64,000 bases of DNA, from contig NC_092676.1 of assembly GCF_964355755.1 (NCBI RefSeq), positions 16,164,288 to 16,228,287 of the forward strand, given 5' to 3'. The position numbers were made by a program, and so were the translations under genes. Shown piece by piece: positions 1 through 64,000 of the stretch (within the stretch, counting starts at the first letter, position 1; each line of letters starts with the position of its first letter). Under the pieces are notes generated by a model. That model was not told the origin of the DNA, made no database searches, and saw only the letters and a list, made by a program, of their open reading frames with translations. Source of the stretch: Antedon mediterranea. Taxonomy: Eukaryota; Echinodermata; Crinoidea; Comatulida; Antedonidae.

Positions 1-271
1 TTTTGATTAAGACAGATGATACCTACTGTAGGGTATAGTTAAGAGGTTATTGAAAAATTGTTTAAAAAAGAAATATGTCAATACGTTTATTGACGCAACC
101 AAACATTCCTGGTTTAATGTAAAATAGTATACGCTTTATAACATTTATATTCCAAACTCAACAATAACGCAGAAGAACCCTATGACGACGATTATGAAAA
201 TGTATTATTGTACAAATTAACCGTTCGATGTTTATTGTCTTGATGCGCTACTGTTCTATTTTGAAAATAAA
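1..271 (+). pseudogene. 3' UTR of a deiodinase-family copy lying left of the window, with SECIS-like element
   Basis: The first 271 bases align closely with 29229-29473 and more loosely with the 3' UTRs of the two intact deiodinase genes (52.7-52.96 kb and 59.74-59.88 kb). They end in the same AATAAA signal (266-271). No coding exon is in view, because the preceding exon 5 would lie outside the window. It may be the 3' end of a working gene or of a relic. The SECIS quartet has CGAT (226-229) where the other copies have TGAT, so decoding function is possible but unproven. Confidence 0.6.
176..236 (+). promoter_or_regulatory. SECIS-like element of the left-edge deiodinase copy
   Basis: ATGA (182-185), the ACGATTA strand, an unpaired A run, the TGTA...TACA mini-helix and the TTAACCGT return strand are in the same order as in the other copies. 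The 3' quartet reads CGAT instead of TGAT, which keeps the GA needed for the non-Watson-Crick core. The apical mini-helix keeps its pairing. Confidence 0.5.
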
Positions 272-6296: not shown

Positions 6297-6366
6297 GAAA
6301 TTGTGTATATACCAAACAGAAGCACATCCTAAAGAACTATGGAACTTGACATCTGTACTTCCTAGT
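6297..6366 (+). pseudogene. Fragment of deiodinase exon 4
   Basis: About 65 bases match exon 4 of the intact gene at 58648-58820 almost exactly, including the codons for the IYQTEAHPKELW motif with the conserved deiodinase Glu-Ala-His. No splice sites or other exons are present beside it. It is joined directly to a TRIM fragment of opposite orientation. Confidence 0.8.
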
Positions 6367-7139: not shown

Positions 7140-7420
7140 TATAATAATTAAACATTTTGTTGGTGCTGTCACCGTAATTTGCTACATCAACCATACATGG
7201 GTTATATGAAAAATATGTAATGTAATAAATATACACATTGAATGATTAGATTAAGCATTGAAATACTAAAGATATTATTTATATTTTTTTATTCATTATG
7301 AATTAGGCAAAAATGGATCACATTTAAATATGTACAAAATGTATAATTTGATTTAATAATTTGAATATTTCAATTTATATAGGAAATATTTTAATTAATT
7401 TATATACATGGGGAAGAGTA
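7140..7420 (-). pseudogene. Tandem duplicate of the TRIM 3' end
   Basis: 7145-7203 on the minus strand encodes a diverged copy of the last residues of the TRIM gene (NPCMV.VAN.GDS...KM). The flanking AT-rich bases resemble the real 3' region at 7380-7440. It is a short local duplication of the gene's terminus, lying downstream of the intact stop codon. Confidence 0.7.
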
Positions 7421-7435
7421 GTCTTGCTTTTAATA

Positions 7436-9124
7436 TTAACACATTTTGATTCTGCTGTCACCCAGATTTGCTACAGCCACCATACATGGGTTATGAGAAA
7501 TGATACATAACTGCTGTGGTAAACTAATTCTATCTTCTTTTTTATCAATTCTTTTGATAAAATGTCCATCACTAGTAAAGTGTTGTATTTTGTCTTTGCT
7601 TGCTATGATGATGTTATCATCCTCATCAACTACAACTCCCCATGGGTACATCACCTTACCATCTTCATATCCTTTATTGATGAGTAGTTTCACTGACTTG
7701 TCCTTGTCATCATACAATAATACTTGATGCTGTCCTGCATCTGCTATAAGTACTTTACCAGTTTTTGTAAGTGCAACATCAGAGTATCCACGTTCTTTCT
7801 TCTGTGTTCCTATCCGCTTCAACAGCTGACCATAATGTATGTCAAACACGTACACACATGTAATGTTCCAATCTGCTACATATATAACATTAGTTGCCTC
7901 ATCTATGTGAATACCACATGGATATTTCAATACACCCTTACCAATGGATTTGATCACATGACCATTCCTATCACATACTTGAATGCATTTATTACTGTCA
8001 TCAATGAATGCTATGTTGCCATTCTTCATTCTGCATATTCTGTTAACTTTCACACCCTTTGGTAGTGTAATCTTGCTTATACATTCTCCTGATTGTTTGT
8101 ATTTGTGAATTTCATTTGTGCGAAATGAAACCAGCAAGCAATCATCATCACACTTTGCTACTCCTGTAGGCTCAACCTCTACTTTGATAGGAAGTGGTTT
8201 GAATACAACATTTCCAATGTCAGTTTCTTTCAATAAATCAATTGAATGTTGGTTTCTGATAAACTGAATTTGTCTAGATGTACTGACTTGTTTGATTTCT
8301 TCAGATTTATTAATTTCATCCATCATTTTATTTAATACAATCTCACTTGATTTCATAGCAGTTGCTGGCTCACTCTTTAGAAACTGATTTAAGGAAATCA
8401 TATTTGTGTTTAATTCAGCGTAGATTTTTGTTAATTTTGTAATTTGTACGTCATTAACTTTCTTTTCATTTTCATACTTTGCTTCAACTTTTTTCTTCAT
8501 TTCATCTGCTTTTTTCTGGATTATTAAAAACATTTCTTGAGCTTGGTTATCAATATCTGTGAGACTTGCAACTTTACTTTCTTCTAGTTCTTTAGCATTC
8601 TTTGTGACTACTTTGAGTACATTTTCTATTTTTTGTATCGATTCATTGGCAGCTTTCTTTAAGTTTTCTGATGTTTCCTTAAACGTATTAAATGCTGTAA
8701 CAATGTTAGTTAGTTCATGTTTTCCATCCCCAGCAATGTGCTCCAATTCAGTGCATTCTATGCATATTGGTACTTTACATTTGGTACAATACATTTTCAA
8801 TGGTTGAGCATGAGAGGCGCACAGAGAGGCAGTGCCTTTAATCTTCCTTTTCTGTTCGTGTTGTTTTATGGTTTCCAAGAGGTTGTTAAGAAAGGTATTT
8901 GGGGCAAGTTTTTGAAGCCCTCCTACTGGAATGGGATACTCTTTGCGACAAATAGGGCATGTTAGCGTGCCATGATTGGTTCGAACCCAATTATTCAAAC
9001 ACTTCAGGCAGAAACTATGAAGGCAGTAAAGTGATTTTGGGTCTTGTAGTCTTCCATTACAGATAGAACATTCTAGTACTTTATCATCTATATCCCCAAG
9101 TAAACTAATGTCGTTGCTAGCCAT
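7436..9124 (-). CDS. TRIM-NHL protein (RING E3 ligase, RBCC-NHL), 562 aa
   Basis: This is a complete single-exon frame. The RING finger is C3HC4: Cys19, Cys22, Cys34, His36, Cys39, Cys42, Cys56, Cys59. B-box 2 has Cys102, His105, Cys113, Cys116, Cys121, Cys124, His129 and His136. A coiled coil follows to about residue 290. NHL-type beta-propeller repeats (about 325-562) show the recurring G-I/V-x-V/I-D-...-I-Y-V-A-D pattern. The family members (TRIM2/3/32/56/71-like) are ubiquitin ligases whose NHL domain binds protein or RNA; the substrate cannot be told from sequence. On the minus strand TTGCAG ends one base before the ATG, so a 5'-UTR intron acceptor is likely. Echinoderm-type genomes carry many intronless-coding TRIM-NHL genes. 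Two partial duplicates lie just downstream. Confidence 0.93.
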   Translation of the reverse strand: MASNDISLLGDIDDKVLECSICNGRLQDPKSLYCLHSFCLKCLNNWVRTNHGTLTCPICRKEYPIPVGGLQKLAPNTFLNNLLETIKQHEQKRKIKGTASLCASHAQPLKMYCTKCKVPICIECTELEHIAGDGKHELTNIVTAFNTFKETSENLKKAANESIQKIENVLKVVTKNAKELEESKVASLTDIDNQAQEMFLIIQKKADEMKKKVEAKYENEKKVNDVQITKLTKIYAELNTNMISLNQFLKSEPATAMKSSEIVLNKMMDEINKSEEIKQVSTSRQIQFIRNQHSIDLLKETDIGNVVFKPLPIKVEVEPTGVAKCDDDCLLVSFRTNEIHKYKQSGECISKITLPKGVKVNRICRMKNGNIAFIDDSNKCIQVCDRNGHVIKSIGKGVLKYPCGIHIDEATNVIYVADWNITCVYVFDIHYGQLLKRIGTQKKERGYSDVALTKTGKVLIADAGQHQVLLYDDKDKSVKLLINKGYEDGKVMYPWGVVVDEDDNIIIASKDKIQHFTSDGHFIKRIDKKEDRISLPQQLCIISHNPCMVAVANLGDSRIKMC

Positions 9125-9130
9125 CCTGCA

Positions 9131-10346
9131 ATATTAATTTGTAATCAACATAAATTATTTAATCTAACATAGTAATAATGATGGTAATGGTTTTAGCTAT
9201 ACAAACAAACAATATTTGCTAAGAATAACTACAGTCTATTCTTTATTGTTGATATTCAGGTCAAATTTCCAATATTAAATTCATCTACATTCTTATAAAT
9301 TATTTCTTTTAATGAAGTTAGATTGGATTTGAACCCTTTGAAATAGTCCAACACAAAGTTGCTTAACATATAAATTATAATTTGAAACTGCCAAAGACCT
9401 ATATTATTGTAAATAATAAATATTAAAAAAGTCACCTTTTGATAAATGGTTGTACTTAAGCTTCTTATTACGTGCTGACGTGGTTATGGAAATGTAAGAA
9501 AGATTCCAATAGGTGCTGATGTCGTTAATCATTGGACCTGTTATTTAGTATTCGGTTAAAAAAAGTTAAAATTTAATCTCTACATTGAAATTGTATTTGC
9601 TATAAGACAATTTGTCTTAAAATCACTGATTTATCTATTCAATGTTTACCAGACCTAGTATAGGCTCATTACAGAGGCAGCAGGGTTTTTCCAACCATTT
9701 ATTCTTTTTTGACCCTTTACGATGTCCTTCCTAGCCACACCCATCAACTTTAGGCGCCAGCCTATCATTTCCATACATTAATATTAATACGGGTGTAGAT
9801 AATTTCCACAGGAATAAAATTGGTTAACTTTCCAGCTAGGCTGACCCCTCTGGGCTCCTGACAATGAAATTTATCGCATGACTGTCCAATTGATATACAT
9901 TAAAAGATCATTATACAACTACCATCTTGTCTTCATCTTCCTATCTATAATATGCGGAACATCATTTGAATATAGACCTAGGCCTAGTCACATACACTAA
10001 TCACTAATATATAATCAAACATCGTATACTCTATCCGTATACTATCTAACCAATATTAAACAATCTTTCTATCGACTAAAGCCGAAGTACAGTAAGTATC
10101 TCGGGACCATTCTATATAATCACCACCAGGAGGTAGGCTTACTTTATCAAGGCTTCTATGAATGGATGACTATAGTTGGGAGCAGGAACGTTAGAAACCC
10201 AGTACCGTTTTACGATCATTCGGGAATTCCCTCACGATATATTCAAACGTTGAGAGCGCTCTACTTCATGGAGAGATTTTTTTTTTTGCATGTCCGTATT
10301 TTGATTTCACACTTGTTTTTTAAGATGTTATACGTGTGAATACAAC
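9131..10346. other. Non-coding interval upstream of the TRIM gene
   Basis: This should contain the TRIM promoter and 5'-UTR exon on the minus strand, but I cannot place them. No other gene or repeat was recognised. Confidence 0.4.
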
Positions 10347-12475: not shown

Positions 12476-15400
12476 TTATTCCCATTGATCAAGCTTTATC
12501 AGTTTCACAACAGGACGCTTATAAACCTTCTCGTGTACTTTTACGTCTACTACTCTCACTCTGTCATCTTCACTGGGGTAGGCCTTTACTATCTTTCCTA
12601 CTAGCCAATCTCCCCTTTGACTTTGGTTATCAATAACTAATACTACGTCTCCTTCCTTTAGGTTTTCACTATCCTTATGCCACTTTTGTCTGATTTGCAA
12701 ACTAGGTAGGTATTCGCCTATAAACTTCTTCCAGAATTGATCGGCTATCAACTGGCTGTGACGCCACTGTTTTCTACTTCGTACTTCATGCGGTTGGAAT
12801 GCAATTGGTGGTAACGCAGGATCTCTTCTACACATCAGTAATAAATTGGGAGTTATGGGGTCTACGTCAGCGATGTCGGAAGAGGCATAACCTAGAGGTT
12901 TCGAATTAAGCATACCCTCAACAAACTACTTCACTCACAACTTTGTTCTTCAAAGCAGCATTTCAGTGCATTCTTTACTGATCTAACCTCCCGTTCCCAT
13001 ATTCCTCCAAAATGAGGGGCATTAGGAGGGTTGAACCTGAAGTCTACTTGCTGCTTAGCAAGTTTATTTTGCAGTTCATTACTCATAGCTTTGAAACATT
13101 CATTTAGTTCTCTTTCCGCCCCTTTAAAATTAGTTCCGCAGTCAGATAGCAACTCTTTAGGTGTCCCTCTTCTTGCGACAAATCTTCTGTATGCCATGAG
13201 AAACGTGTCTGCATCCATGCAACTTATTGTTTCTAGATGAATGGCTCTCATGGTAAGGCACTTGAATATAATCCCCCATCTCTTTTCTTGTAATCGTTTC
13301 ACGTTAACTATTATCGGTCCCCAACAATCTACTCCGGTGGAGTGAAACGGCTGTTTACCAACTCTAACTCTGGCTTCCGGTAAGTCTGCCATTATTGGCA
13401 CTGTAGCAGCCTTTCTCCATTTTTGGCACTCTATACATTTTCTTAAGATTGACTTTATCGTGTTTCTTCCTTTCAGAATCCAATATCTTCTTCGAACATA
13501 AGCAAATACCTGATTTGGTCCAGCGCTATGACAGAAAACATTACTATCTATTCGTTTGATTAGTAATTTAGTGATGTGGTGGCTGGGATCAAGTAATACA
13601 GGGTGTAAATCAATGTCCAGATCTACTGCTTTTTGGAGTCTACCTCCAACTCTAATTAATCCTGACTCATCCCATTGTGGGTCCAAGCTAACTAGTCGGC
13701 TACCTTTTTGCACATTTTTCCCACTCTGCAGCAACTGCACTTCTTCTGGGAAACATTCTCTCTGAACTTTGCGTAAGAGCATCGGTTCCAGATCTCTCAC
13801 TTTCTGCACATCTAATGCTTCGGAATCTACTCCGTATATCGTCTGTCTATATTTTTCTAACATATCTTCCCATGTTCAAAATTCTGCTACATTTAAATCA
13901 CCTGAGTTTACAATATTCCCACAAAACTTTACTCCTTTTTCTTCTTCTTTGACTTCCTGCATTTCAATTCTTTCATGGAGCAATTCCTTCATGGGTAGTT
14001 TGAGGAACTCGGGTCCATTAAGCCATCTACCATTTATGCTTTCTACTGGAATCCCTCAGGATACATCATCCGCTGGGTTCACGCTGCCTGGCACATGTCT
14101 CCAACTCTTTATCTCCGTTTTACTTTGAATCTCTGCTACCCTGATGCCTACAAATGATTTGAAGTGACTACTGGGCTTCCTCATCCAACCCAGAACTACC
14201 ATGCTGTCTGTCATTATGATAATCTCATTGAACCTCAGTGTTAATTCTTCGGTTACTGTAGCTTTCATTCTATTATAAAGCGTGTATCATAGGCTCCGTC
14301 CTTCAGTTTCCATCGTATATATGCGCAGGCGCCAAACGCCTTCTCAGAGGCATCACAGAAAATCACCAATACCACCTCATCTGAAACATTATGTGGAGTC
14401 AAACATCGGAAGAATGTTACATCATTAATCATTTGAAATTCCTCGAACAGTCTTTTCCATTCGCTTTCAGTTTGTTCAGTTAACTTCTCATCCCAATCAA
14501 CTCCTGTCTCCCACAATTCTTGAATTCTTATTTTTGCTTTTACCGTCACTGGTGCTACAAACCCAATAGGATCAAACAACCTTGCTATGATACTTAGTAT
14601 CTTCCTCTTTGTGAGTGCCTCTGTCCAATAATTACTTTGAATACAAATACATCCTTACTCGGTATCCATCTGATTCCTAGAACTTTCTCTACACTACTAA
14701 TCATTGCAACTTCTTTCGCTTCAACTTGGACCTTTTCTGCTATCTTTTCATTTGATACCCATCCCTTTACTGAGAATCCACCATTGCTTAGTATCTTGTC
14801 TATGTATTGAATTAACTTAATTGCGTCGGGTTTGGACTTCACTGATGGACATATGTCGTCCATGTATGTATCTCTCACTATTACTTTAGCGGCCTCTGGG
14901 TATTCAGTTTTACTTTCTAGTGCCATGGCCGGGACTGGCTTGTCGCCAAAAGTGAGAACTTGCTTTATATATATATCAGGCTCTCTGTCGAACTCCACAT
15001 CTCGCCATAGGTATCTGTGAACGTGTTGGTCAATCTCCGGGATGCGGATTCGATGATACATTTTCGATATATCTCCGAGGATGGCAATGCGATTCTCTCG
15101 AAAGCGTAGTATTACTCCGACTAAGTTGTTTAAAAGGTCTATGGTGTCTCCGTTATATCTGTTTGAAGCATTGAACACAATCCGGACTGGTGTGGTTCTG
15201 TTCTCCGGTCGGTTCACCGAGAAATGCGGAATATAATGGACAGGGCCTTGATAACAATTGACTTCAGACTTGGTCAATTTTCTGGCGAGTTGCATTTGCA
15301 CCATTTCATCTATTTGATGTTGGTATGCTTTTGCATGTTCTCTATTTTTTTGTTAATCTCCTTTCTAACACACCCAACATTTTTTCCGCTTGATGTTTAT

Positions 15401-15975
15401 TGTCCATCAGGTTAAACGGATCTCTTACCCATGGGTAGGAAACTGTCCACTGGTTCTCCATCTTGATACATGAGTCTTCCAGTAACTTTGTTTCCATTTC
15501 CTCGTGTACAATCTGACTCTTCTTACAGCTACATGATCCTACATCTACTCCCATTGCTTCAGTTGACCAGAAATCTGCAAGGTCAACAAGTTTACTGATT
15601 TTAACATGCATTATCCGGTTGTTCAGCGTGGAATTACCACCACCACCGTAAACAGTCCATCCCAGAAGCCACAATTCCATCCCCTTCTAGTATTTTTCCT
15701 GTGTGAAGGTAAGCATAGTTTACTCCTATTAGAATATCAATCGGTCCAGCCTGTCTTTTCAGTGTACCCTCCTTCATCTCGAACAATTGTTCCAGCTTTC
15801 TAAAATTTACATCAGGATTATCACTTATGTCGCTCATTCCGATGGCCTTGATTTTATGTATTTTCTTTGGATTCTCACCTACTAACTGTATGTCATAGAA
15901 TTTTGTATCATATTTTTCCTCCTTACCTCCCACAGTGGTCAACGCTGCTGTAACATTTTTACCCTGGATACCCAA
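12476..15975 (-). pseudogene. BEL/Pao pol remnant: protease, RT, RNase H, integrase, DUF5641-like C-terminus
   Basis: The pieces in order on the minus strand are as follows. A protease-domain region spans 15342-15975. RT is at 14594-15304, with FNAS, GDISKMYHRI and the catalytic TYMDD. RNase H is at 14056-14579 (FCDASEKAFGA, MTDSMVVLGW). Integrase is at 12931-13863, with an HHC2-type zinc region ending CIECQKWR, Asp in GVDCWGP, Asp in LSDCGTNF and Glu in GIWEREV. The C-terminal domain is at 12476-12913 (GDVVLV...RGDWLVGKI). In-frame TGA codons (for example between DDVS and GIPVE at about 14056) and frame changes separate them. The family's integrase usually has Asn where SDC has Cys. Confidence 0.9.
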
Positions 15976-17280
15976 ACTGTTAACAAAGCGCCTTCCCTTA
16001 TGAAAGTACCTTGGGAGCCGTTGTCTAACATCACATTTGCTTTCTTGCTTGTGTTTCCATTAATTACCTCAACTTCAAGTACCTGCAGTAATGGTTCATT
16101 GTCAATTACACTTCTGGACAGACCTACCAATCCCACGTTCCCTGGATGCAGTAAAGGATGGTGATACTTGTCACAACATTGTTTATCTACCAACTTGTTA
16201 CATTGTTTTCTTCTGGTGCAATTTGCCATCCGGTGATTTCGGCCTGCAATTTCCAAGCATGCAAAACATGTATGTTTTTACTTTACCTTTTTCATGCTTT
16301 CATCTGAGACTCAGTTTTAACATAGCTTCACATTGGTCAGTCCAGTGGTCATCATTTTGACATACCCATCATTTATGGTATTCTGTTTTGGCAGCAGTTT
16401 GGTTTACTCTCACCTTGTGCTTTTCTTGGGGTTTTTGCTGTTCCTGGTTTCCGAAGACTGGGTCACTAGTTTCCAAGGCTGCAGTTTTTACAAACATAAC
16501 AATGTCTTTCAATGACGGATTAGTTCCTTTGGCCTTGATCTTCTGATTCTCTCGACACCACCTGTTTTGGAGAAACTTAGGAAAACCATCAATTATTTGC
16601 TTTAAACTAGCTTGATTGTTCAATTCATTTAAATACTCAAGTGCACTTAGTGCCTCATAACAGTTTTCAATGTCATCTGAAAACTCCCTTAAACTATGAA
16701 CATTCACCTTTCCTCTAGTCAAAATCTTTTGAACCCATGCCTGGACAATGATTGCTGTATTACCAAATCTTTCCCTTAATGTGTCCCAAGCTGCTTTAAA
16801 TCCTTCAGTGGGTGGTTTCATGACACAGAATTGAATTGCATCCAGAGCTTTACCTTTACAAAATAATATTAAGGTGTTCAACTTAACACTATCATTAACT
16901 CCTGACATCATGCTCTGGTAAGAAGTTATAAAGGAATGATAATATACAGGGTCCCCATCATAATGTTTCAGTGGTGTACGAGGAAGTGATAATGCCTTTA
17001 CTAGACTATCCCAATTACCTTCAGTTTTATCAGTAGATACATTATTATTGTTTACATTAGCTTCAACAACATTAGGTTGATCTACAACATTATGATTTTC
17101 ACTATTGTTTACCTTATCATTAACTATAGTATCAGGTTGAGTCTTTTCTAATGTGTCTGTTTCAACATCTTGAATTGCTTTTGCCGCTAGGTTGTTAGAT
17201 ACTGTTTTAGTCTTATATTCAGTCTTGATAGCATAGACTTCTGCCATATATTCCTTTTGGCATCTGTAATAAATTACCAT
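15939..17280 (-). pseudogene. BEL/Pao gag (C-terminal part) and start of protease
   Basis: 16369-17264 encodes a gag-type region rich in charged residues with LPRTPLKHYDGDPVYYHSF, typical of the BEL/Pao gag domain (DUF1759-like). The remaining frame (15939-16256) has a His/Cys knuckle (H..NCTRRKQC...CCDKYHHPLLHP) and the protease motif VMLDNGSQGTFI. The apparent start at 17280 lies in the inserted gypsy LTR and is not a real start. The true gag N-terminus is beyond the insertion at 20402-20617. Confidence 0.85.
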
Positions 17281-17337
17281 TCCCTAACATATAGAGTAAC
17301 AACCGCTCGGAAGCATACGTGAGAGGAATTCGTGACA
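17265..17337 (+). mobile_element. 5' LTR of nested gypsy element, internally deleted
   Basis: The first 36 bases and last ~37 bases match the two ends of the 449-bp 3' LTR (19943-20391), joined directly. About 375 bp are missing, including the TATATAA seen in the 3' LTR. It is flanked on the left by CATC, the same four bases that follow the 3' LTR. Confidence 0.85.
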
Positions 17338-17695
17338 TAATTTGGTGGCAGCGGTGTTCGACATAATTTGGTGGCAGCGGTTATTTCAATCTACTGTTCG
17401 ACTTAACTGTGTATTTATCTACTGTTGTGATATTTTGTGGTAGCAGTTTGATCTACTGTATTTTGCCATAGATTGGTGGCTGTTTTAAGATCAACTGTAC
17501 TTTATTGATATTTTGTGAAAGCGGTACTTACGATACTGAGATATTTTACGGAAGCCGTGGTGCTACGTTTTGTTTAATCGTAAGTACACAAACATTGTTT
17601 TAAGAACAGTACATTATTTATTTGGAGCAGTAGACTTGTGAACGTCTCGGTAACTACGATTAACTAGTAACAAGACCCTCATCCAGATTTAAAAT

Positions 17696-19869
17696 ATGGC
17701 TGATAAACAATCAACAACAAGATCCGGTAGAGAATACAGCGGCGGCGATGAATCTGATTCTGAAGTAGAATCGGTTCAGTCATTACAACCTGAACAACAG
17801 GCAGAAGAGTCTGTACCAACCAGTGGACATAACCCTACAGGGGCTGACTCATCTTCAAAAGATTTGTTGTTGTTGATGCAGCAGCAAATGCAACAGCAAA
17901 TGCAGCAGCAAATGCAACAGCAAATGCAGCAACAAATGCAACAGCAGAATCTTATGATGCAGCAGATGATGGAACAACAAGAACGTTTACGTCAAGAAGA
18001 TATGGAAAGACAAGAACGTTTACGTAGGGAAGATATGGAGAAACAGCAAGCATTAGTAATGGCGTTAATGGATAAGCAAAAGGACAGTGAGGAGAAACGA
18101 TTAAAAGACATAATGAGATTGAAGGAAGTTCAAATTGCAAAACTTTCTGATAGTGAAGATATTGAAAATTATCTCACTACGTTTGAACGAATTGGCGAAG
18201 AGAACACTGGGTAGTAAAACTGATACCACATTTGACAGGCAAAGCAAGAGCAGCCTATGCATCACTACCAGTGACAGAAAGTAACCAGTACGATATAGTG
18301 AAGAAAGCAATATTACAAAGGTATGACATAACTGAAGAGACATATAGACAAAGGTTTAGGTCAATTAAAAAGAAAAGTGAAGAAAGTTATAGAGAAATGT
18401 ATGTTAGGTTGAAAGATTTATTTACGAAGTGGGCTAAGCCTGCTGATAAAAGCAAAGATGATTTAGCTGAAATTGTTATTTTAGAGCAATTGATAGATAT
18501 TATGCCCACATGGGTACAAATATGGGTTAAAGAACATAAACCAGACTCTGGATTAAATGCTGCGGAATTAGCAGATAATTATTTTCAAGCTAGAAAAGGT
18601 ATCGATTTTGAGAACAAGTTTCAAAATAGAAAACACGAGAATAGAAACAACCAGGAGAAAACAGTCAAAGGCACTCCTGAAGTTGACAGTAAGGGTAATA
18701 ATAATCCCCCTGATAACTTTCATAAATCACAATCTGACGCTAGACAACCTCTCGTTTGTAGACGGTGCAAAAAAGTAGGCCACATAGAACGATTTTGTCG
18801 AAGTAAGGATGGCTTTTTTTCGACAAAGACAGATACTGTTTCAAAACCATGTACACCTTACATTTGTAGAGGTCTAGTTGAAGGATGTGATTGTGAAATT
18901 TTGATAGACTCTGGATGTGATATGACACTTGTTCATTCTGATTTAGTAGCGGCTAAGAAAATTAATCGCGCGGAGCAAGCTAAAATTACATGCAGGTGCG
19001 TCCATGACCATGTCCAAGCCTATCCTACTGCATTCGTCAATATTAAGGTTAATAACGAAGACCATAATTTGTTGGTTGGGGTTTCCAGCGATTTACCAAG
19101 AAATGTAATTCTTAGTAGGGACTTTCCTAAATTTGGAGACTTATTAGGGAAAGGGAATAAGAATCATGCTAGGCATAGTTTTGTTGCCACTAGAGATCAT
19201 GCTAGAAAAGAAAAACTAAAAGAGGAAAACGAATTAAATTCGGAAAAAGCTTCTGGGGTTATTTCACGTCAGTTAGATGATGTGGTTAATTTTCAAGAAG
19301 AATTTGGACATTTAGATGGCCAACTACTCAGTGACAACCCTCCCAAGGAAAAAGTTCATAAAACTAGAAGTGAGAAACGAAAAGTTAGGAAAGAGTTTGC
19401 AAAAACAAAGGAAGCTCAATCTAGCCAAGATAGTGAATTAGACATTTTAGATATTGGCAGAGATAAAATTAAGGATTATCAGGTTAAGGATAGAACTTTA
19501 ATTTCACTTCGAGAACAGATGTTAGTACAGAAAGATGATGACACTATAAAGATAGTCTGTAAGGATGGAATTTTATTTAGGCAAGTTTTCACTAAACACC
19601 AGACAGAACCAATAGAGCAATTAGTAGTTCCATATCCTTGCCGTAATAGTGTTTTGAAAGTTTCACATGATATTTCTTTGACAGAGTATTGTAAAGTCTC
19701 AAAGTATAAAACTAAATTGAAGGCCCCGATGATTGCTATGTCAGTAATTGTTAGTGAACCATTCCGACCAATTTACATGAATATTGTTGGTTCATTATTA
19801 GTAATTATTAATCATTATGTTCTATGTTATTATGGCGTATTTAAGTTTTATAGACTAGGAGTGGGTTAA
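17696..19869 (+). pseudogene. Gypsy gag-protease-integrase remnant (one frameshift)
   Basis: 17696-18214 has a glutamine/methionine-rich tract (CAG/ATG repeats near 17876-17950) and a charged coiled coil. A frameshift at about 18200-18210 leads to 18232-19869. That frame has a SCAN-like gag region (YREMYVRLKDLFTKW), a CCHC knuckle (CRRCKKVGHIERFC) and a protease with catalytic LIDSGCDMTLV. It then has an integrase-like N-terminal stretch (KDGILFRQ...QLVVPYPCRNSVL), cut short after a VSEPFRPIYMNIVG motif. The zinc-binding and catalytic parts of the integrase are largely lost. Confidence 0.85.
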
Positions 19870-27730: not shown

Positions 27731-28367
27731 CGAACCTTAGTTAATATATGGCTCCTACCCACTCAAGCTAGCCTTTTGGAGGTTGCCACCATCTTTTGCT
27801 TTCAAATTTTTATAATACTGAAATATATTGAAATAGAAATACTGATATTCTTTTTCTCGGATGAAAGCAATGATGTGTACATTCTTGTCATGTGTTCCTT
27901 TTTAAAACCTTATTATTATGTTTCCACCTTTTCTGCAATTAAAAGAAATAAATGTGTTTTTTTTAATTTGATATATGATTTATTTTTCAGAGACAAATCC
28001 AGCTTAAACGATCTAGGCCTAATACTGTAATGTATTAGGCCTAATACATCAATATTGGTTGTATTTGTGTTTACGCTCTAGCACTATGGAGGACCTCGGT
28101 TGGGACAGCGAGTTAGCTATCAAGATTTTAAGACGGCTTATGTATGCATCTGAAACAATTGAATCGGTGAAAGAATGTGTAGATTTCAAAGAAAGTTACT
28201 CGTCAATTTCCAGGTAAAGAATACGTTCGGATTTTTGTTTTGAAATTAGGATTTGCATTATGTAGGTTTTACTTGTTAAAGGACAACTTGACCGACGACC
28301 ATCTTTTAACAACGTATTAGGGAGGGATGTACGTACATATAATTTCAGAACCATCGCGAGATTAAGG

Positions 28368-28522: not shown

Positions 28523-29376
28523 TAAATATGGTTAGTGAAATATTTCGTAGATTTGTCCACATGACTATGTTTGAGTGTCTCACATTCATGTACACATCCC
28601 AATGTTATTTATGATTGAGAAATTTGTAAATGAGATCATTGTAAATTAGAAGCCTTAAACAACAACATTTGACGGGTTGGTTCATTCAAACAAATGAATA
28701 AGGTGTTATATAGTATTGTTTAAAAGTGGCATAGGAAAAACAACGGCCTTAAAGGACAACTTGACTGAGGACCATATTTTTACAACGTATTAGGGATGTA
28801 CATATAATTTCAGAACAATCGCGAGATTAAGGATATTGCCACACGCGCTTGCCGTACAGCCGTTGCCGTAAATTGATGTGACGTCACAGGTGCATCGCAA
28901 AATCGACTTAATGAGTTCAGATAAGCAAAAGAAACAATAAAAAAAAAATCAACATTTATATTTTTTGATTTATTTACAAAGTAGGGGTTGCCCAAGAGTC
29001 CAGGACTGGGCGTAGATAACGAGTATTTGCGAAGCGAATTTTGTTAAATGACACCCCTAGATGGCCGGAAATGGTACTTTTGCACGTGCAATTCACGATA
29101 AATGGCACCTCTAGTTCACCGAAAATAACATTTGAAAAAGTTAAAGCTGCTGCTATAAATATATATTGAGCAAAACGTTAAATTGTATTATTTTGAAATT
29201 AATTCTAAATAAGTCAGTAAAAGCACTTTTGATTAAGACAGATTATGCCTGCTGTGGGGTATAGAACATAGAAATATATCAATACGTTTATTGACGCAAC
29301 CAAACATTCCTTGTTTATTGTAAAGTAGTATACGCTTTATAAAATATATATTCCAAACTCAACAATAACGCAGAAG

Positions 29377-29437
29377 AACCCTATGACGACGATTATGAAA
29401 ATGTATTATTGTACAACTTAACCGTTTGATGTTTTAT
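29377..29437 (+). promoter_or_regulatory. SECIS element of the dead deiodinase copy
   Basis: ATGA (29383-29386), the A run, the TGTA/TACA mini-helix and TGAT (29427-29430) are all intact, identical in layout to the working copy at 59794-59841. It outlived its coding exons. Confidence 0.75.
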
Positions 29438-29714
29438 TGTCTTGATGCACTACTGTTCTATTTTGAAAATAAAATGGGTTTTTTTCAAATTACTCTATAA
29501 CGCTTATTAAGTATGGTAAATATATTGTGCTTTATATAACTTAAGGCCCATTTACACTAGACCGATAACTATTGACGATATGAATAGATAAAATATTTAA
29601 AAAGGTTTTATTCTAGAACTATTGGATAACAAATTATGTCTTTGATTAAAATAATGTTTCCACACGTCCAATCAAGTGACGCCATGATTAGTATAGCTAT
29701 ACTATATTGACGAT

Positions 29715-50173: not shown

Positions 50174-52575
50174 ATGGAGGACCTCGGCTGGGACGCCGAG
50201 TTGACAATTAAGATTTTAAGACGACAGAAAGAACTTATGTTTGCATCTGAAACATTGAAATCTTGTGAAGAACGTTTAGATTTCAAAGAAAGTGACGTGC
50301 TAGTGCATTATCAGGTAATCATTTAATAAAAGCCTAACCAAAATGTTTCCTTTCCTTGCATTACTGATGAAGACGAGACAGTCTCGAGTTTGTAACTTTA
50401 TTCCAGTTTGGAAAAATGGTGTACCACACAATTTAATATTATTATTATCTGTTTATTCACCTTTCAAAACCCTTGCAATTTCGTGAACCCACCATTTCGT
50501 TTTATCTGATTTCTAACCATAGGAAATAAAGAAAGAGGTTGATAATCAGGTACTGAGTGAATTGGGCATTAAGGTACCGTCTGATTTTTCTGGTATTATG
50601 CCTTATGTTGACGCAAACTTTTCCAATAACCAAGAGGTGTGTACAGCGTGATCGTTTTATTTTATCCACATATATGTCTTGTTTAAACGTGTTAATCATC
50701 ACAGTTAATGATATCAGCATTAATTCACATTGCTACCATGCATACTTCCTAATATACGCATTGTTCACGTAATTTATTATAATTTAATTTAATTAATAAA
50801 TTATTTAAAATATATGAAATAATAGTCTGATATCTGATTTTAGGTTAAAGAAGTATTGAGGTACAGGAATTACACAGAACTTGGTAAAGATGTTTTAACA
50901 GTTGGAGGAACATACCCAGATGTTGACTTGTTTTCAGTTGAAACACATGACAAATACCCGCTTTCAAGCCTTCATCTTCACAAGGAACGCCCTTTTCTCA
51001 TCGTTACATCATCAGCATCCTGACCTCCGTTTCAGGTGCAGTGTTTGTAATTTTGCGGCTTACAGGATTAAGTGGGCGTTTATTCATAAATATAATTTGA
51101 AGAGAAGTTGTAATTTTTTATATTTTCTGAAACAGTCTTTTTGTTTTGGCAGTATGTACACGATCGACTGCATAATTGTTATTCTATTTTATTAAGTTTA
51201 AAGTTCAAGTACCACTTTTATTGAAATATAAGAGATATGAACTGTTTCAATGAGATGAAAATAAACTTTAAAAAAATGAGTTGGTCTCTAATGGGTGAAT
51301 AAAAATAATATTAGCCTATCTAATACTTTTCTTTATTTATTAAGAGAATTCATAAGAACAAAATGTGATCAGCCTGAACGTCTAAGCTGGATTTAACTTT
51401 AAACTGCTGATAGTACAAAATGATAATTTTTTTTTTAACGTATGCCGCTCTATCGTTTTAACGTTTGCAAAATGTAACTTTCTTCTGTTTGTATATCTAT
51501 AGGCAATCGGGAAAGGTGGTGGTCTTTCTAGATTGTTCGATGACTATAAAGATAAGGTAGATTTCTTGTGTATATACCAATCAGAAGCACATCCTACGGA
51601 GCAATGGAGCTTAGGCCCTGTACACAACAGTATTTCACAACATACTACGATAGATGAACGAAAACAAGCTGCTATGTATGTTGGATATTTTTCATGTTCT
51701 GTATTGTGCATACTTAACAATTATTTTATCTTTTCCATTTTTACGTGTCACCTCTACTGTAAGTGAACCTACTGATAAACCGATTGACTGAACACACAAC
51801 TGACACTAAACAACTAAGCATGACTGCCACTGAACCAAACTACCTCTGACTAACTAAATATGGAAGATTAACAGTAAACGTAACTAACAGACAATACATT
51901 CAAATAATACTACTAAACCAACAGCGACTGACATTAAACTAGGTCTAACCGTGACTGACACTACGCATAATACAGTGACTGTAAGCTAGGTCAAAAGTGA
52001 CTGACATTAAACTAGGTCAAAAGTGACTGACATTAAACTAGGCCTAACAGTGACTTACACTAAACTGGCCAAACAGTATTCTGAGAATAAACTCCAAATG
52101 ACCATAAATCGAATTGACATACACCTTGATCATCGTCGACACAGCAGTTAAATTTTAATAAAATATCATTGATTTTTTCTTTGAATAAAGGAATTTGATG
52201 ATTTTTTTCCTCTTTTGTGGCGTTCACCACTACTTTTATTCATATTAACTTCAAAAAGATAAATACATAATTTCAATGTATCTGATATCATATTCATTGT
52301 TATTTTTATATATCTATAGGAACTTGATCAAAGTTGATGAACAACATTACTCAGTTTTTACAAGTGATCCCTTCTCTAATACACAACTTCGTCTGGTGTG
52401 TGATAATATGGATAATCAATTCAAATATACATTCAATGCTCATCCAGATAGAATATACCTGATACAAGGAAAGAAGTTAATGTATATTGGTAGAAACATA
52501 ATATCACAAATGAAAGAACCAATGAAATTAATGACAGACGAAGCCCACCAGATACTTGAACAGATTTTCAAATAA
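50174..52575 (+). CDS. Iodothyronine deiodinase-like selenoprotein (copy A), five coding exons, 291 aa with Sec145
   Basis: Exons: 50174-50314, 50523-50636, 50844-51035, 51503-51675, 52320-52575, all with GT-AG borders; the frame is kept throughout (phases 0,0,0,2). The in-frame TGA at 51021-51023 lies in SSAS-Sec-PPF, the deiodinase active-site context. Downstream are IYQSEAHPTEQW (family Glu-Ala-His), ISQHTTIDERKQAA and LVCDNMDNQF...PDRIYLIQGKKLMYIGRN. All are hallmarks of the thioredoxin-fold deiodinases, which remove iodine from thyroid hormones or related iodotyrosyl compounds. A SECIS lies ~300 bp after the TAA and AATAAA at 52956-52961. The usual N-terminal membrane anchor is not seen in these exons. 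A tandem paralogue with the same exon lengths lies 3.5 kb downstream. Substrate and direction of deiodination cannot be inferred. Confidence 0.93.
51923..52070 (+). repeat. Minisatellite in intron 4 of deiodinase A
   Basis: Units of about 26-30 bp of the form 'gtgactgacattaaactagg' repeat five or so times. The matching intron of copy B has only a degenerate ACTGAC/AAACC-rich stretch. Confidence 0.7.
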
Positions 52576-52865
52576 GCTATCTTAATTGATTTCATATTTA
52601 ATATAATGAATATTTCATATTAACTTGTGGGGTTATGTCTAATGTTTTAGTTTTAAAGATTGTATAAAAAATGTTGTAAGCATCAGAAATCTTTCCAATA
52701 CAAATGTGATGTTGCAATGAGTGACTCGGTGCTGTCTAATAATTTCATTGCATTGTATATTGGTAATTACTATCTATTTAATTGGCGCATGCAAATATTC
52801 GGGGTTTAAATGTAAAATATTGTATTATACATTAGTATGTTCCAAACATAACAATAGCGTAAAAG

Positions 52866-52925
52866 AACATTATGATGACGATTATGAAACTGTATTATTT
52901 TACAACTTAACCGTTTGATGTTTAT
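52866..52925 (+). promoter_or_regulatory. SECIS element (form II) of deiodinase A
   Basis: The quartet ATGA (52872-52875) faces TGAT (52916-52919), giving the tandem G.A core. The helix strand ACGATTA pairs with TAACCGT (one A.C mismatch). An unpaired AAA lies 11 bases above the quartet. A short TGTA/TACA mini-helix caps the structure. It directs Sec insertion at the TGA at 51021. Confidence 0.85.
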
Positions 52926-52955
52926 TGTCTTGATGCGCTATTGTTCTATTTTTAA

Positions 52956-52961
52956 AATAAA
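52956..52961 (+). terminator. Poly(A) signal of deiodinase A
   Basis: AATAAA 30-odd bases after the SECIS, at the same relative place as in copies at 266, 29468 and 59878. Confidence 0.75.
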
Positions 52962-53529
52962 TGTTTACTCAATTATTTAATCTAAACAACCATGTGCATG
53001 TTCATTTATGCTTTTCACACATTTATTTATTACAGTAATTTAATGATCATAGGAATGAATACTGAATCAAGCATGATGATGCTTTGTAGGTACCAATAAT
53101 GAGTCGATGCTTGGGTGGTTTAATGAGGATGATTGTTTTAGAAAGTTTAGTACTACTGTATACATTATAACACATCCGAGTGTATCCTTGTCTTTTGATT
53201 GGTTAATTTCGCATCACGTGCCGTTCAGTATTTAGGTCTATTGCACGGTAAAGTTCTATTCAACGGTTCTATTACACAACAACAGTGGGAACCCTATCAG
53301 TAACAGAATGGATTAAAAATATATGAAACAATTGAATAAGTGATATCAAAATATTATATGGAACGCAAGAGTCTGGTGGCTGCAATGTACGTCATCTATA
53401 ACTTCTACTCCGTGTCCAAAATGGGATCATTTCGTCTTGCCTCCAGCCTATCCTTCGACATTAATTTAAGATTGAGATGGCGGATTGATTTAGTTTTCTA
53501 TAAAGCGATGTGTTACAAAACAGATAATA

Positions 53530-53890
53530 AATACTGTGTATTAGTTAAATATCCGCAATTCCACCTTGTCGTGAGCGAGCATCTTCCATCCACTAATAAT
53601 ATGTCTTACAGTTTCAGTAGAGTCTCCACACAATCTACATAACGGTGTTTCTAATCTATATTGTATTTTTATCGCATTCGTTCTTAAAGCTTGTTTTTGA
53701 GCAGCTAGTATCAATCCTTCTATCTCCTTCTTCAAAAAACCATTCCTAAGCCATCTCCAAGAATATCCATGTAGGGCTTTCTCTTTCCAGCCCTTGGTTT
53801 TCTCCTCTTGCCACCTCTTCTGCTAATCTATAAGATTTCCTTTTTCGTCTAACACCTTCTCATTTAAAGCAAATTGCAGCATCCTCTGTA
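53530..53890 (-). pseudogene. LINE C-terminal fragment
   Basis: Minus-strand codons read MLQFALNEKVLDEKGN, KEKALHGYSW and, in frame 53541-53735, EIEGLILAAQKQALRTNAIK and CRLCGDSTETVRHIISG. This is the well-known end of RTE/CR1-like ORF2. Internal stops are present. Confidence 0.75.
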
Positions 53891-54010
53891 GTATTTTTAC
53901 TCTACTCACTATGTCGGTCGGAGGGTCGGATGGTTGGTCGGTCGGTTAGTTGGTCGGTAACTAACTCAAATTTGAGCACGCGACTGCAGCCATGTATATG
54001 GCCTTGTTAT
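53891..54010. repeat. GGTCGGTC-tract dispersed repeat, third copy
   Basis: Matches 5820-5912 ('ctcactatgtcggtcgg' and 'gagcacgcgactgca...tatggccttgtt') and, less fully, 26955-27045. Confidence 0.65.
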
Positions 54011-54769
54011 CAGAAGGGTATATTTTAAAAGGGTTAATTAACGACTCCCACTGTGCTTCTTTGCTGTTGAAAAATAAGTTGGGTTATTAACAATTATCAA
54101 TGCGTATTTATATTTTGTCGTCAGTCGTTAGTTGTTCTAGTGTAAAGAGGGAATTTAATCTGGAATCAGGAGACTTAAGTTCCGAACCAATAGTGTGTAT
54201 TTTTATTGCGTACAGTATGTACTATTTTTTGATGTTGAGTCTTATGTTTGTAAGGCCTACAAAATAAAATTAGCCTTATTTCAATTAACAAAAATTTATT
54301 GAAATCATAAAAAATAAATAAAACAAAATAGAGAATACAAGGAACCAAAAACAATGTTAATAATAATTAGAACAGATTACAAAATATCGACGCCAGTCTT
54401 CCTTTTATTTTTAGCGTTGATTTTCAATTGTAAAAGAAATAACACAAGGATCTTTATCAATAGGCCTATTTGTCAAATAAATATAATACACATAGTTAAA
54501 CTATACATGCTTTTACACAAACCTTTAATCGCTTTTTAAAATACTTTATTATATTGTTTTATTTTTAAAAGATTTCTAAAGACAAAAAACAACACAAACG
54601 CATAACAATTGTTATAAGCAAGCAATAACTATGCAAATAATAATTTAAAAAAATATATCGCATACATTTACTTTACCATATTGTAAACACATGCATTTCA
54701 ATTTCAAAATGTTATTTATATTAAGTTACACTCTAATAATAAAATTTCATAGTCTCACTGTTCATGTTA
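54011..54769. other. Non-coding AT-rich interval
   Basis: No recognised gene or repeat. Short open frames have no known motif. Confidence 0.4.
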
Positions 54770-55040
54770 TAATAGGAGTGAGTGAGTGCCATGGTTCTGG
54801 TGGTAGAAAGAGTCTTCTCGGATAAGGACTATAAACCGTAGGTCCAGTGTACACATCTAGTTCGTGTGCACTTTAAAGAACCTAGTACATCTTTCGAGAC
54901 GAGTAGGGGGTTACCCCGGTGTATTAGTACATCACGCCACTGATCACCAACTGGGCCCTCTGGGAGACCAGTCCTTGACTGAAGAGGTTACCCAGTATAA
55001 ATATATATTTCAATCAATCAATCAATCAATCAATTTCAAT
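54770..55040 (+). mobile_element. SINE-like element with (CAAT)n tail
   Basis: The body is related to the 'gataaggact...ggtccagtgtacacatc' segment of 3590-5560 and 26640-26730. It continues through a GAGTAGGGGGTTACCCCGGTGT block and ends in a CAAT microsatellite (55013-55035). This is the layout of a short retroposon with a simple-repeat tail. Confidence 0.6.
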
Positions 55041-56043
55041 CTAGCAAAGATCTGTACTTTGAACAGTACTATGGTGCTGGTATAATATTTGATCACTATA
55101 GTATTAACTAACCGAGGTAAGTAATTTTTTTCTTTTGCCTTTTCTTTTTATTTTTTTATGTCATAGAAACCGAATAAACAAACTAAAAAAAAACAGTATG
55201 TAAGGCTACCACCGTACGTTAAGATAAACCCTGTTTTTTTTCTTTTAAACCTTTGTTACTCAACGTCGGTAAAGGGTTTTAATTGTGCTATATATTCACA
55301 CAAACATTACTTTACAAGTGTACCTTCGCCAAGTGCAAGCCTTTGAACCATTATTATTTACCTCCGCCAAGGAGGTATTGTAGTCGATCGCATGTGTTTG
55401 TCTGTTTGTTACTTGGGAAAATAACATGTTGCCAAGTATAGTACTTTATTTGCTTATTAGCGTGTAGTAGTACTTTCTTTGTTTGTATGTATATTATATG
55501 TTTGTTTGTATGTTTGTTGGTTAGCACGATAGCGCTTACAATTTTCAAGTTATCATTCTGAATTTTTTGGTGTAGATAAGTATATACTTACAGACCATGC
55601 CTATTGAAATTCAAGAAAATCGGTTTATTAATAACTTCAAAAATAAATTAACTAGTGTTAAAAGATAAACAGAGCAGTCTTCAAGTAACAAGTAAAGTGA
55701 AATTGCATTTTCCCGATAACTACTTGTTCAAAAAATCGAATATTTTTATACAAGAGGCAAGAATTATAATTTTTGATCTGTAATTTTAAAACATAATTTG
55801 ATTTAATGTACAGGTTTTTTTTTATAGGAGTAGTTTAAAAAAAACCTATTTCTTTTAAAATTCAACCGCTTGTTTTTCACGTTGCTGCTCAATTGTTAGT
55901 CAAATGAGACTATTGTTAGTTGATAATTAGTTTTTTTAGTTCCAGAACATGCATATTGTTTTTCAGGAAAATTGATATATTGGTCATGTCACAAAAGCTT
56001 ATCTTTCATACGATGTATTAAATAGCATTATCATAACAGCAAC
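55041..56043. other. Upstream region of the second intact deiodinase gene
   Basis: 55390-55560 resembles 880-1010. 55560-55660 ('cagaccatgcctattgaaatt...ttattaataacttc') resembles 5648-5700 and 26825-26880, so the flanking DNA was copied with the gene. A CAG ends four bases before the ATG (56044), as in copy A. Confidence 0.5.
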
Positions 56044-59000
56044 ATGGAGGACCTCGGCTGGGACGCCGAGTTCACCATCAACATTTTAAGACGACAGAAA
56101 GAACTTATGTATGCATCTGAAACAATGAAATCGTTTAAAGACCGCTTAGATTTCAAAGAACATGACGTGTTAGTGCATCTTCAGGTAATTATTTTAAAAC
56201 ATCTTTACCAAAGTCATCTATCCTGTTTAAAAAGCACATAATTAGAACATGCCTATTTATAAAATCAAAAGGTTGTATTTTATCTGGAAATATTAATTGG
56301 TAGTTTTATTTATACTGAAAATTATTAAATAAATGCGGTTAAAAATCGAATTTTGATTTGCTTAATATAGGCCTATAGCTTCTGTATGCCCTTTTTGAAG
56401 AAACAGTTAAATAGAGCTATTTTTGCCTGAAACGTCTTATAAACGTCATTACTTCTATTTGGGCATAGGTACGGTACGGTACACTGTAAATGTGTACAGG
56501 TGAATGTCCTTACAAAGATAGGCTGACATGATATATTTCTTATTTCTAGAACTTAATCTGGTCATTGCAGACAAACAAAAAATTTTTGTCTGTAAGCTAT
56601 CTGAAATGTTTTATTTGCATTATGATAAATGAAATATTTCTAACCTGTTGCCTATAGGCTATATGATAATAATAATGCGATTAGGCCTACTGTTTTCATC
56701 TAAATAAACCGGGTATCTGACACTACGTGAAAATATTTATTGGCATAGAGAAGATATAAGTACGTTTTAAATATCTAACCCTCTTGCCTATATTATTACT
56801 ACTGGGAAGTTAATCTTGTTTCCATTAGCGAGCCTATTGGTACATATGGTTGCGATTTTTTCACAAAAAGTTAATGTAAATATACCCATGCGCATTATTA
56901 CATTTTATTCGCGCGAATAAATTCGCTTATTGGAAAATAGATGTTCTTTTTTGTTTTTATTATCATTTGTAACAAGACCCTATCATATTATAGTGTATCA
57001 ATATTTTATTAAACATTTTCATGCCATCACCATTGAGTATTTTATATATTTATTTATCTAATCGAAGAAAATTAAAGGAGAGATTGATTATCAAGTACTG
57101 GACGAATTTGGTGTAAAGGTACCATCTGATTTTCCTGGTATTTTGGCTTACGTTGACGCAAAATTTTCCAAGAACCAAGTGGTAGGTAGTAAAATTTGAA
57201 GCATGACTTAACTTTCGTTTAAACGTGTAGATCATCGAAATCATCAGCATAATGCCGTAACTTCATTGTGTTTTTCCTTTTGAGGTAATCATAAAATCAT
57301 AACTGCAGCGTCATAGTCATCGGAATGATCTCGGGCATAGGTACGATACGGTACACTGTAAATGTGTACAGGTGAATGTTCTTACAAAAATAGGCTGACA
57401 ACATATTTCTTATCTCCAGAACCTAATCTGGTCATTGCAGACAAACAAGAAAAATGTTGTCTGTAAGCTATCTAACATCCACTGAAATGGTTTATTTGCA
57501 TTATGATAGGCCTAAATGTTATATTTCTGACCTATATAAGATAATAATAATGACTTAACTTTAATTTAAACGTGTAGATCATCAAAATCATCACCATAAT
57601 GCCGTTAACTTCATCGTGTTTTTCCTTTTGAGGTTAATCATATCATCATATATAACTGCAGCGTCATAATTTTTGGAATGATCTTATTTGTTCGACAATA
57701 TCATGCTACTCAGACGAGTTATATACTCGCCGTACACATTCTGACTGATTTTCTGACAACTTTCATAAAATGTAATAAGGCCCAAGTAATGCTCTATCTG
57801 TTTATTACCTATTTACCTGGGTAAGTTATTGATCTACACACAAATTAACGATAATTTACAATTAATTACAATTTACATAATATAATATAATTACAAATAG
57901 CAGGCCTACATAAATATTCGGTTTCACTCCTGAAGACTTAAATATGTGAACATCTTGTGTATTTGCTTGTGAACGAATTATTACCTTAGAGTTGGCAATT
58001 AAACTTAATTTACATTAGGTTATGGAAGAACTCAGGTACAGGAGTTTCACTGAAATCGACCAAGATGTTTTAACAATTGGAGGAACATACCCGGATGTCG
58101 AATTGGTCTCAGTTGAAACACATGACAAATACCCACTTTCAAGTCTTCATATCCACAAGGAACGCCCTTTTCTCATCGTAACCTCATCAGCATCCTGACC
58201 ACCGTTTCAGGTAATTGTAGGCCTACAATTAGCGGTTTCTACTAATGGAAATCTGATACGGTACAAAATAAACACTTTCTGAGTGTTCTGCATCAAATCT
58301 ATATCAACGATCAACATCATCGTAATTTAATAGATAACTTAAACAAACTAAATATCAACAATGTTTCTTTTTAACCGTTTCTGCATGCAATATACAGTTT
58401 TGCCAGTAGGTCAGTTTTACTATTTTATACCAGTAATATTCTCAGAATATAAAAAGTACTAAAAAGAAAGCAAGAGGCAAGAACACTGTCTCTTTGTATT
58501 ATATCGGCATTTATATTTAGAAATATGTGTTATGCTTAATGGTACTGTTATTTACTTCGGCCTTATTGTTGATTTTAGTGAGGACCCGGTATAATGTTGA
58601 AACAATATTTTGTTTGTATAATTTAACTTGTTGTTTATTTATTACAGGCAATCGTGAAAGGTGGTGGTCTTTCTAGATTGTTCGATGACTATAAAGATAA
58701 GGTAGATTTCTTGTGTATATACCAAACAGAAGCACATCCTAAAGAACTATGGAACTTGGCATCCGTACTTAGTAGTATCCCACAACATAGCACGATTGAT
58801 GAAAGAAAACAAGCAGCTATGTAGGTTGAACAATTTTCTTTGAAAACTTTAAATTGTGAATATTCGCAAATTATTGTCTACCGCTTATCAAATTATAAAT
58901 AAAAATTCGGTAATAGTATTGACTAGATGGTGCTGACAATAACCATCCACAAAAACAAATAAGTGGTCTACAAACAATAAACAGCACTGTCAATTACTGA

Positions 59001-59495
59001 CTACGAAACTCCCTACTGGACTTTATTTAAACTAAACCTAACTCACTAAGCCTACTATTAAGCAAAACTGACACCAAACCCAGTCTACTAGTACTAAATA
59101 CCATGCTGGCAATAAAGACGACCCAACGAATCCAACTGACCGACTTTAACTAAACACAATTGATTGATTGTTTCTATTTCATCATGATTAAAAATAAAAC
59201 TTGGATATTTTCATATACAATCTTCTTTATCTATAAAAGGAATTTGATCAAAATGGATGAACAGCTTTACTCAGTTTTTACAAGTGATCCCTTCTCTAAT
59301 ACACAACTTCGTCTGGTGTGTGATAATATGGATAATCAATTCAAAACTACTTTCAATGCATTCCCAGATAGAATATTTCTAATACAAGGAGAGAAGTTAA
59401 CGTATATTGGTAGAAACATAATGTCACAGATGAAACAACCAATGAAATTAATGACAGATGAAGCCCGTCAAGTACTTGATAAGATTTTTGAATAA
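56044..59495 (+). CDS. Iodothyronine deiodinase-like selenoprotein (copy B), five coding exons, 291 aa with Sec145
   Basis: Exons: 56044-56184, 57068-57181, 58019-58210, 58648-58820, 59240-59495. Their lengths (141, 114, 192, 173, 256) equal those of copy A exactly; only introns differ in size. The in-frame TGA (58196-58198) sits in SSAS-Sec-PPF. IYQTEAHPKELW, PQHSTIDERKQAA and LVCDNMDNQFKTTFN...PDRIFLIQGEKL follow. Exon 2 uses a poorer acceptor (TCGAAG) than copy A. A SECIS is at 59788-59848 and AATAAA at 59878-59883. The frame is open apart from the Sec codon, so the gene looks functional. The role is that of a thioredoxin-fold, Sec-dependent deiodinase; substrate unknown. No hydrophobic anchor is seen in the N-terminal 100 residues. 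Confidence 0.93.
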
Positions 59496-59787
59496 ATATA
59501 TAATAAATGGCAGCATTTAGCAGCACTGTAGTGTAATAGTTGTTAGTATAGTAATGAATACAAAATAAAAGAAAATAAATAACACTGTATCATCAGGTCG
59601 ATAAAACGTGTCGAATATGACTCACTATGATATATATAATATTAAAATAGATTTGGATTTAACGAAGATATAAAACAAAATTGTGTATTAATATATTAAC
59701 TATGCTATAGATTCATTCACTAGCTGCGTCTTATAGGAATTGAAATATACTGACATTATAGTTCCAAATATAACAATAACGTAAAAG

Positions 59788-59848
59788 AACATTATGACGA
59801 CGATTATGAAAATGTATTATTGTACAACTTAACCGTTTGATGTTTTTT
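59788..59848 (+). promoter_or_regulatory. SECIS element (form II) of deiodinase B
   Basis: ATGA (59794-59797) faces TGAT (59838-59841). ACGATTA pairs with TAACCGT. An AAAA bulge lies 11 bases above the quartet and a TGTA/TACA mini-helix closes a six-base loop. Nearly identical to the copy at 29377-29437. Confidence 0.87.
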
Positions 59849-59877
59849 GTCTTGATGCGCTACTGTTCTATTTTGAA

Positions 59878-59883
59878 AATAAA
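59878..59883 (+). terminator. Poly(A) signal of deiodinase B
   Basis: AATAAA directly downstream of the SECIS, conserved in position with the other copies. Confidence 0.75.

Positions 59884-60463: not shown

Positions 60464-64000
<3,537 letters not shown>

Follow-up and report, generated by a model that had tools for sequence, protein, structure and literature searches.

A cluster of selenoprotein genes of the deiodinase superfamily, with three intact genes and one or more dead copies, was found in the crinoid Antedon mediterranea, in and immediately upstream of a window of 64,000 nucleotides (nt) (C7:16164288-16228287; the assembly comprises 354 Mb in 18 contigs). The three genes, here called A, B and C, are real, intact and under selection. 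They probably encode duplicated selenoenzymes without a membrane anchor, which, judging from their family and conserved residues, would reductively deiodinate an iodinated aromatic compound, most likely an iodothyronine. A preliminary description of the window had recognised genes A and B as a tandem pair; both proved to be intact, but the count was incomplete, since gene C, a dead copy (D) and a scrap of exon 4 had been missed.

Gene models and active-site residues

Genes A and B each contain five coding exons whose lengths (141/114/192/173/256 nt) are identical between the two genes, as the preliminary description had stated, and all their introns have GT-AG borders. The joined exons form a frame of 291 codons in which the sole interruption is a TGA at codon 145, a candidate selenocysteine (Sec) codon. 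The earlier observation that this TGA stands in frame in the context SSAS-TGA-PPF and is followed by an EAH motif held for both genes, and the base right after the TGA is C in all copies. A protein search of the whole genome returned 16 matches, all of them on C7, corresponding to the five exons of each of genes A, B and C and to a lone exon 1. Gene C lies upstream of the window and has the same exon lengths and TGA, in an intact frame. The gene models are as follows, in window positions unless L005 or C7 is given.

Gene A, 50174-52575, + strand: five coding exons
Gene A exon 1, 50174..50314, + strand: start codon (MEDLGWDAE), with A at -3 and G at +4 around the ATG; GT donor
Gene A exon 2, 50523..50636, + strand
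Gene A exon 3, 50844..51035, + strand: Sec TGA at 51021-51023 (SSAS-U-PPF)
Gene A exon 4, 51503..51675, + strand: EAH and QH of the deiodinase loop
Gene A exon 5, 52320..52575, + strand: stop TAA
Gene B, 56044-59495, + strand: five coding exons
Gene B exon 1, 56044..56184, + strand
Gene B exon 2, 57068..57181, + strand: acceptor tcgaag, donor gtaggt
Gene B exon 3, 58019..58210, + strand: Sec TGA at 58196-58198
Gene B exon 4, 58648..58820, + strand
Gene B exon 5, 59240..59495, + strand: stop TAA
Gene C, L005:6308-9700 = C7:16160607-16163999: ends ~290 nt before the window
Gene C exons, L005:6308-6448, 6602-6715, 7049-7240, 8961-9133 and 9445-9700

For exon 2 of gene B, starts at 57067 or 57069 were ruled out by the stops that result, and 57068 is correct. 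An AG acceptor-like dinucleotide is present a few nt 5' of the ATG in the three genes, and a non-coding first exon may therefore exist.

A profile comparison had been proposed in the preliminary description as a check of its claim that these are deiodinase-like selenoprotein genes. Pfam returned T4_deiodinase (PF00837) as the only family matched by the proteins (5.7e-22 for A and 1.2e-23 for B), and the matches in the PDB were only to DIO3 (7.8e-12) and DIO2 (7.5e-11). The claim is thus upheld, both by these searches and by the constraint past the TGA and the tRNA-Sec genes described below. The core aligns with 37% identity to mouse DIO3 and with 30% to DIO2, in the matched part, and alignment to the solved structures (PDB 4tr3/4tr4 for DIO3 and 9h48 for DIO2) supports a predicted thioredoxin fold with a peroxiredoxin-like N-terminal module.

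The residues of the active site are largely those of the vertebrate enzymes. Sec occupies the S-x-(T/S)-U-PPF position, as SSAS-U-PPF, in A, B and C, and the three proteins are identical to DIO3 at Ser167, Sec170, Pro171, Pro172, Tyr197, Glu200, His202, Trp207, Gln218, His219, Arg225 and Arg260. The deiodinase-specific loop (Tyr197, Glu200, His202, Trp207, His219 and Arg225 in DIO3 numbering) is kept at six of six positions in each protein. Mutation of several of these conserved residues abolishes or reduces the deiodinase activity of DIO1 or DIO3 (PMC7506546, PMC9141512). In the mechanism suggested by these residues, the selenolate of Sec, placed in a thioredoxin-type pocket, would attack the iodine of an iodinated phenolic substrate, while a Tyr/Glu/His network would relay a proton and anchor the loop that holds the ring, the pocket network Tyr/Glu/His/Trp/His being as in deiodinases. 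The likeliest substrates would be iodothyronines or their derivatives. Because the proximal Cys of DIO1 and DIO3 is Ala here, as in DIO2, an external thiol would be needed to re-reduce the Se-I or Se-OH form. A location off the membrane is suggested by the gene models, in which no N-terminal membrane anchor was found (the top 19-residue hydropathy is 0.61 in residues 1-100 and 1.45 anywhere, and an upstream coding exon is possible). The N-terminal part of ~100 residues has no match to DIO2 or DIO3, and the membrane part has also been reported to be lacking in non-vertebrate chordate deiodinases (PMC8699336).

Several features of the proteins count against a thyroid-hormone deiodinase. Thr169 of DIO3 is replaced by Ser in A, B and C, a change that lowers the activity of DIO3 by ~60% when introduced by mutation (PMC7506546). 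Further, the proximal Cys has been replaced by Ala, Phe258 of DIO3 by Pro (DIO1 also has Pro), and ~14 extra residues follow helix D. Taken together, these differences imply that the substrate could differ. In addition, a tree of 16 rows, comprising vertebrate DIOs, bacterial proteins and the window proteins, puts the window proteins on a long branch apart from both the vertebrate DIOs and the bacterial rows, a position that does not group them clearly with any vertebrate DIO type.

The same substitutions would also fit a non-thyroid function, in which the selenoproteins share the fold and Sec of the deiodinase superfamily but have another substrate, being either a soluble enzyme resembling thiol peroxidases or reductases or a dehalogenase of other iodinated or brominated aromatics taken from the diet or seawater. 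This alternative gains further from the missing anchor, the unmatched N-terminal part and extra loop, an Arg275 that is apparently displaced by one residue, a tree that does not unite the A/B/C family with DIO2 and DIO3, and the existence of Cys-containing relatives in Planctomycetota and Verrucomicrobiota. We know of no thyroid hormones in these two phyla. A non-thyroid function is nevertheless somewhat unlikely, because the proteins keep intact the EAHPxxxW...QH...R loop, a feature that DIOs share and that is linked to thyronine binding, and because DIO2 too lacks the proximal Cys (PMC11592359).

As regards the substrate, the preliminary description had suggested that iodothyronine or iodotyrosine metabolism has expanded in this lineage. 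The family has indeed expanded (three intact members and one dead copy or more), but the iodotyrosine part of the suggestion is not supported. Iodotyrosine deiodinase (IYD) is a flavoprotein of the nitroreductase fold, outside the deiodinase superfamily, so that iodotyrosine is by family unlikely as the main substrate of A, B and C; no nitroreductase match was obtained in the Pfam search of the proteins.

Constraint past the TGA and SECIS elements

The frame downstream of the TGA is conserved as protein. Ratios of nonsynonymous to synonymous substitution (dN/dS) downstream of the TGA were 0.20 (A/C), 0.21 (A/B) and 0.28 (B/C), and upstream of it 0.35-0.48 among the same pairs. None of 1000 neutral simulations per pair produced as few amino-acid changes after the TGA as were observed, and coding constraint was detected on both sides of the TGA (P at most 0.002). 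Under random substitution, the probability that the frame would stay open with only the Sec TGA across 117-166 substitutions was 0.0002-0.002. These results bear on whether the copies are pseudogenes or decaying genes, in which the TGA is a true stop and the frame beyond it a relic, a reading that draws on the TGA being a standard stop codon and on the dead relatives (copy D and the exon-4 scrap) in the same cluster. The selection test refutes it for the three genes taken together. All of them keep an open frame before and after a TGA at the same place, their splice sites are preserved and a 3' element is conserved more than introns and flanks, which leaves decay a very improbable explanation. 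It is hardly credible, too, that the copies are unmerged alleles of one gene, since, even if tandem near-identical genes are a frequent assembly error, dS among the copies is 0.32-0.50, amino-acid identity is 72-80%, the introns fail to align and all copies lie in order on one 30.5-Mb contig; the reading was rejected on the value of dS. Against this overall divergence, a run of 52 nt in exon 5 (coding-sequence positions 655-706; ~52354-52405 in A) shows no difference among the three genes, which may reflect gene conversion or a constraint other than that on the protein.

A Sec insertion sequence (SECIS) had been described 3' of each gene, and a SECIS-like hairpin was recovered in the 3' flanks on the basis of its position, its match to a descriptor and its conservation.

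Gene A SECIS-like element, 52849..52946, + strand: Form-2-like, with an ATGA / AAA / TGAT core
Gene B SECIS-like element, 59771..59868, + strand: Rfam SECIS_1 score below gathering
Gene C SECIS-like element, 159..256, + strand: inside the window, though the exons of gene C are outside it

When whole gene regions were compared in pairs, the sole aligned block away from the exons was the one in the 3' flank that holds the SECIS (~130-200 nt, 83-92% identical). The descriptor (ATGA, AA 9-13 nt later, NGA, at least 7 of 8 pairs in helix II and at least 5 in helix I) matched the 3' flanks of A, B and C, and dinucleotide shuffles gave ~0.0125 matches per kb per strand. The element of gene B reads ATGACGACGATTATGAAAATGTATTATTGTACAACTTAACCGTTTGATG, and the lower stem across the copies is AACAATARCG/CGCTAYTGTT. 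Folding yielded an AUGA core with tandem G.A pairs, unpaired A's (an AAA bulge) and a mini-helix, in line with the core, unpaired A's and mini-helix described for Form 2 SECIS elements (PMC3328465). The UGA at codon 145 is probably read as Sec by means of a Form-2-like SECIS located ~270-460 nt past the stop codon. Two observations speak less well for the elements. Rfam gave no match within the window at gathering scores, and in E-value mode SECIS_1 reached 17.3 bits on B against a gathering score of 35 (E 2.1), A being unmatched; and helix I (the lower stem) of the B and C elements has two A-C mismatches, so that, folded freely, these elements do not exceed shuffled sequence in stability. The genome contains two tRNA-Sec genes with anticodon TCA (79.2 and 77.8 bits against a gathering score of 47).

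Other Rfam matches in the window, to snoRNAs and HOTAIRM1, were sub-threshold and were taken as chance. A further match to the SECIS descriptor, with a long stem, at 62817-62875 (+ strand) is probably the palindromic end of a mobile element and not a SECIS.

Dead copies and extent of the cluster

The remains of other copies are located between genes C and A.

Dead copy D, exon 1 remnant, 28086..28229, + strand: in-frame 9-nt deletion and diverged end; reads to a stop
Dead copy D, orphan SECIS, 29360..29457, + strand: 1.1 kb past exon 1; exons 2-5 are gone
Exon-4 scrap, 6301..6366, + strand: LCIYQTEAHPKELWNL; a 66-nt match to gene B with 94% identity

Over 29227-29473, the sequence surrounding the orphan SECIS of copy D shares 85% identity with the 3' flank of gene C. 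Gene finders that start from the SECIS could be misled by such a relic. The exon-4 scrap sits in unrelated sequence beside a poly-G run. Neither a DIO2 query nor the Pfam profile brought up another deiodinase in the genome, in a search that proceeds exon by exon and is weak, and no relatives were found in the viral contigs searched.

Related systems, neighbouring features and significance

The expansion of the deiodinase family in this animal is no surprise, given the clusters already published and the many loci of the sea urchin. Tandem deiodinase clusters have been reported in amphioxus (Branchiostoma), Trichoplax and Lottia (PMC3473315), which share with the present one several adjacent Sec-containing genes with SECIS elements, whereas A, B and C, in a different lineage, are all on one strand and have one SECIS each. 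In another echinoderm, the sea urchin, many deiodinase loci exist (PMC9856734), of which three are induced in larvae by thyroxine (T4) (PMC10250714). By description, Mytilus coruscus McDx and McDy (PMC8481496) are two invertebrate Sec deiodinases with a TGA and a 3' SECIS, which differ in being cloned transcripts and in encoding 258 and 242 residues. With vertebrate DIO1-DIO3 the crinoid genes have in common the position of Sec, the EAHPxxxW loop with QH and Arg, and a TGA-encoded Sec with a 3' SECIS; they are unlike them in their anchor-less models, unmatched N-terminus, extra stretch, five coding exons, Ser for Thr169, Pro for Phe258 (as in DIO1) and a distal Cys that is not at the same place and, with respect to DIO1 and DIO3, in Ala at the proximal Cys. 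The deiodinase-like proteins of Planctomycetota and Verrucomicrobiota (L027-L038) have a related core with FGSCTCPPF and EAHP (23-35% identity) but Cys for Sec, a proximal Cys, no His at the QH position and an N-terminus that, by eye, looks exported. One deiodinase-like gene (L034), whose contig carries the label Euryarchaeota, is very similar to those of planctomycetes (L035, L038), and the contig is probably mis-binned.

Other features of the window were noted beside the cluster.

61152-61484, + strand: alpha-tubulin-like exon, neighbour of gene B; its likely first coding exon (ATG only) is near 60464
17693-19869, + strand: open reading frame whose SCAN domain (strong match, 1.1e-23) precedes a CCHC-like knuckle and a weak match to gag protease; a gag-like retroelement whose capsid is of SCAN type, here in an invertebrate genome
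7436-9133, - strand: uninterrupted open reading frame of 565 amino acids, of TRIM-NHL type (RING, B-box and NHL repeats); it may be a gene without introns
6201-6707, - strand: partial second copy of the TRIM-NHL type reading frame
12476-17283, - strand: retroelement pieces with an integrase zinc-binding domain and DUF1759, presumably of BEL/Pao type

The genome also contains a match to the bindin core (2.3e-28), which indicates an echinoderm, bindin not being known from other phyla. COX1, sought for the mitochondrial code, gave no match, and a scan for mir-2, which would tell protostomes from deuterostomes, was negative among the 60 of 132004 candidates that were scored, too few to be informative.

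Sea urchins, whose larvae are responsive to thyroid hormones, possess numerous deiodinase genes, and the present cluster bears on which enzymes carry out deiodination in echinoderms. Clusters of this kind were known before, though not from this species; the gain lies in three corrected gene models, in the dead copies and their orphan SECIS, and in an anchor-less enzyme that can be assayed. The three models, complete, under selection and provided with SECIS, are directly expressible and assayable, and one of them lies beyond a window-sized view; in the dead copies both the growth and the decay of such clusters can be seen, down to a SECIS whose coding exons are gone. A more far-reaching proposal, which is improbable at present, is that the whole deiodinase activity of this animal may be carried by a soluble, anchor-less Sec subfamily with its own N-terminus, with no membrane-anchored DIO. 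If this were true, the deiodination of thyroid hormone or other iodo-aromatics in echinoderms would use an enzyme laid out unlike vertebrate DIO1-3.

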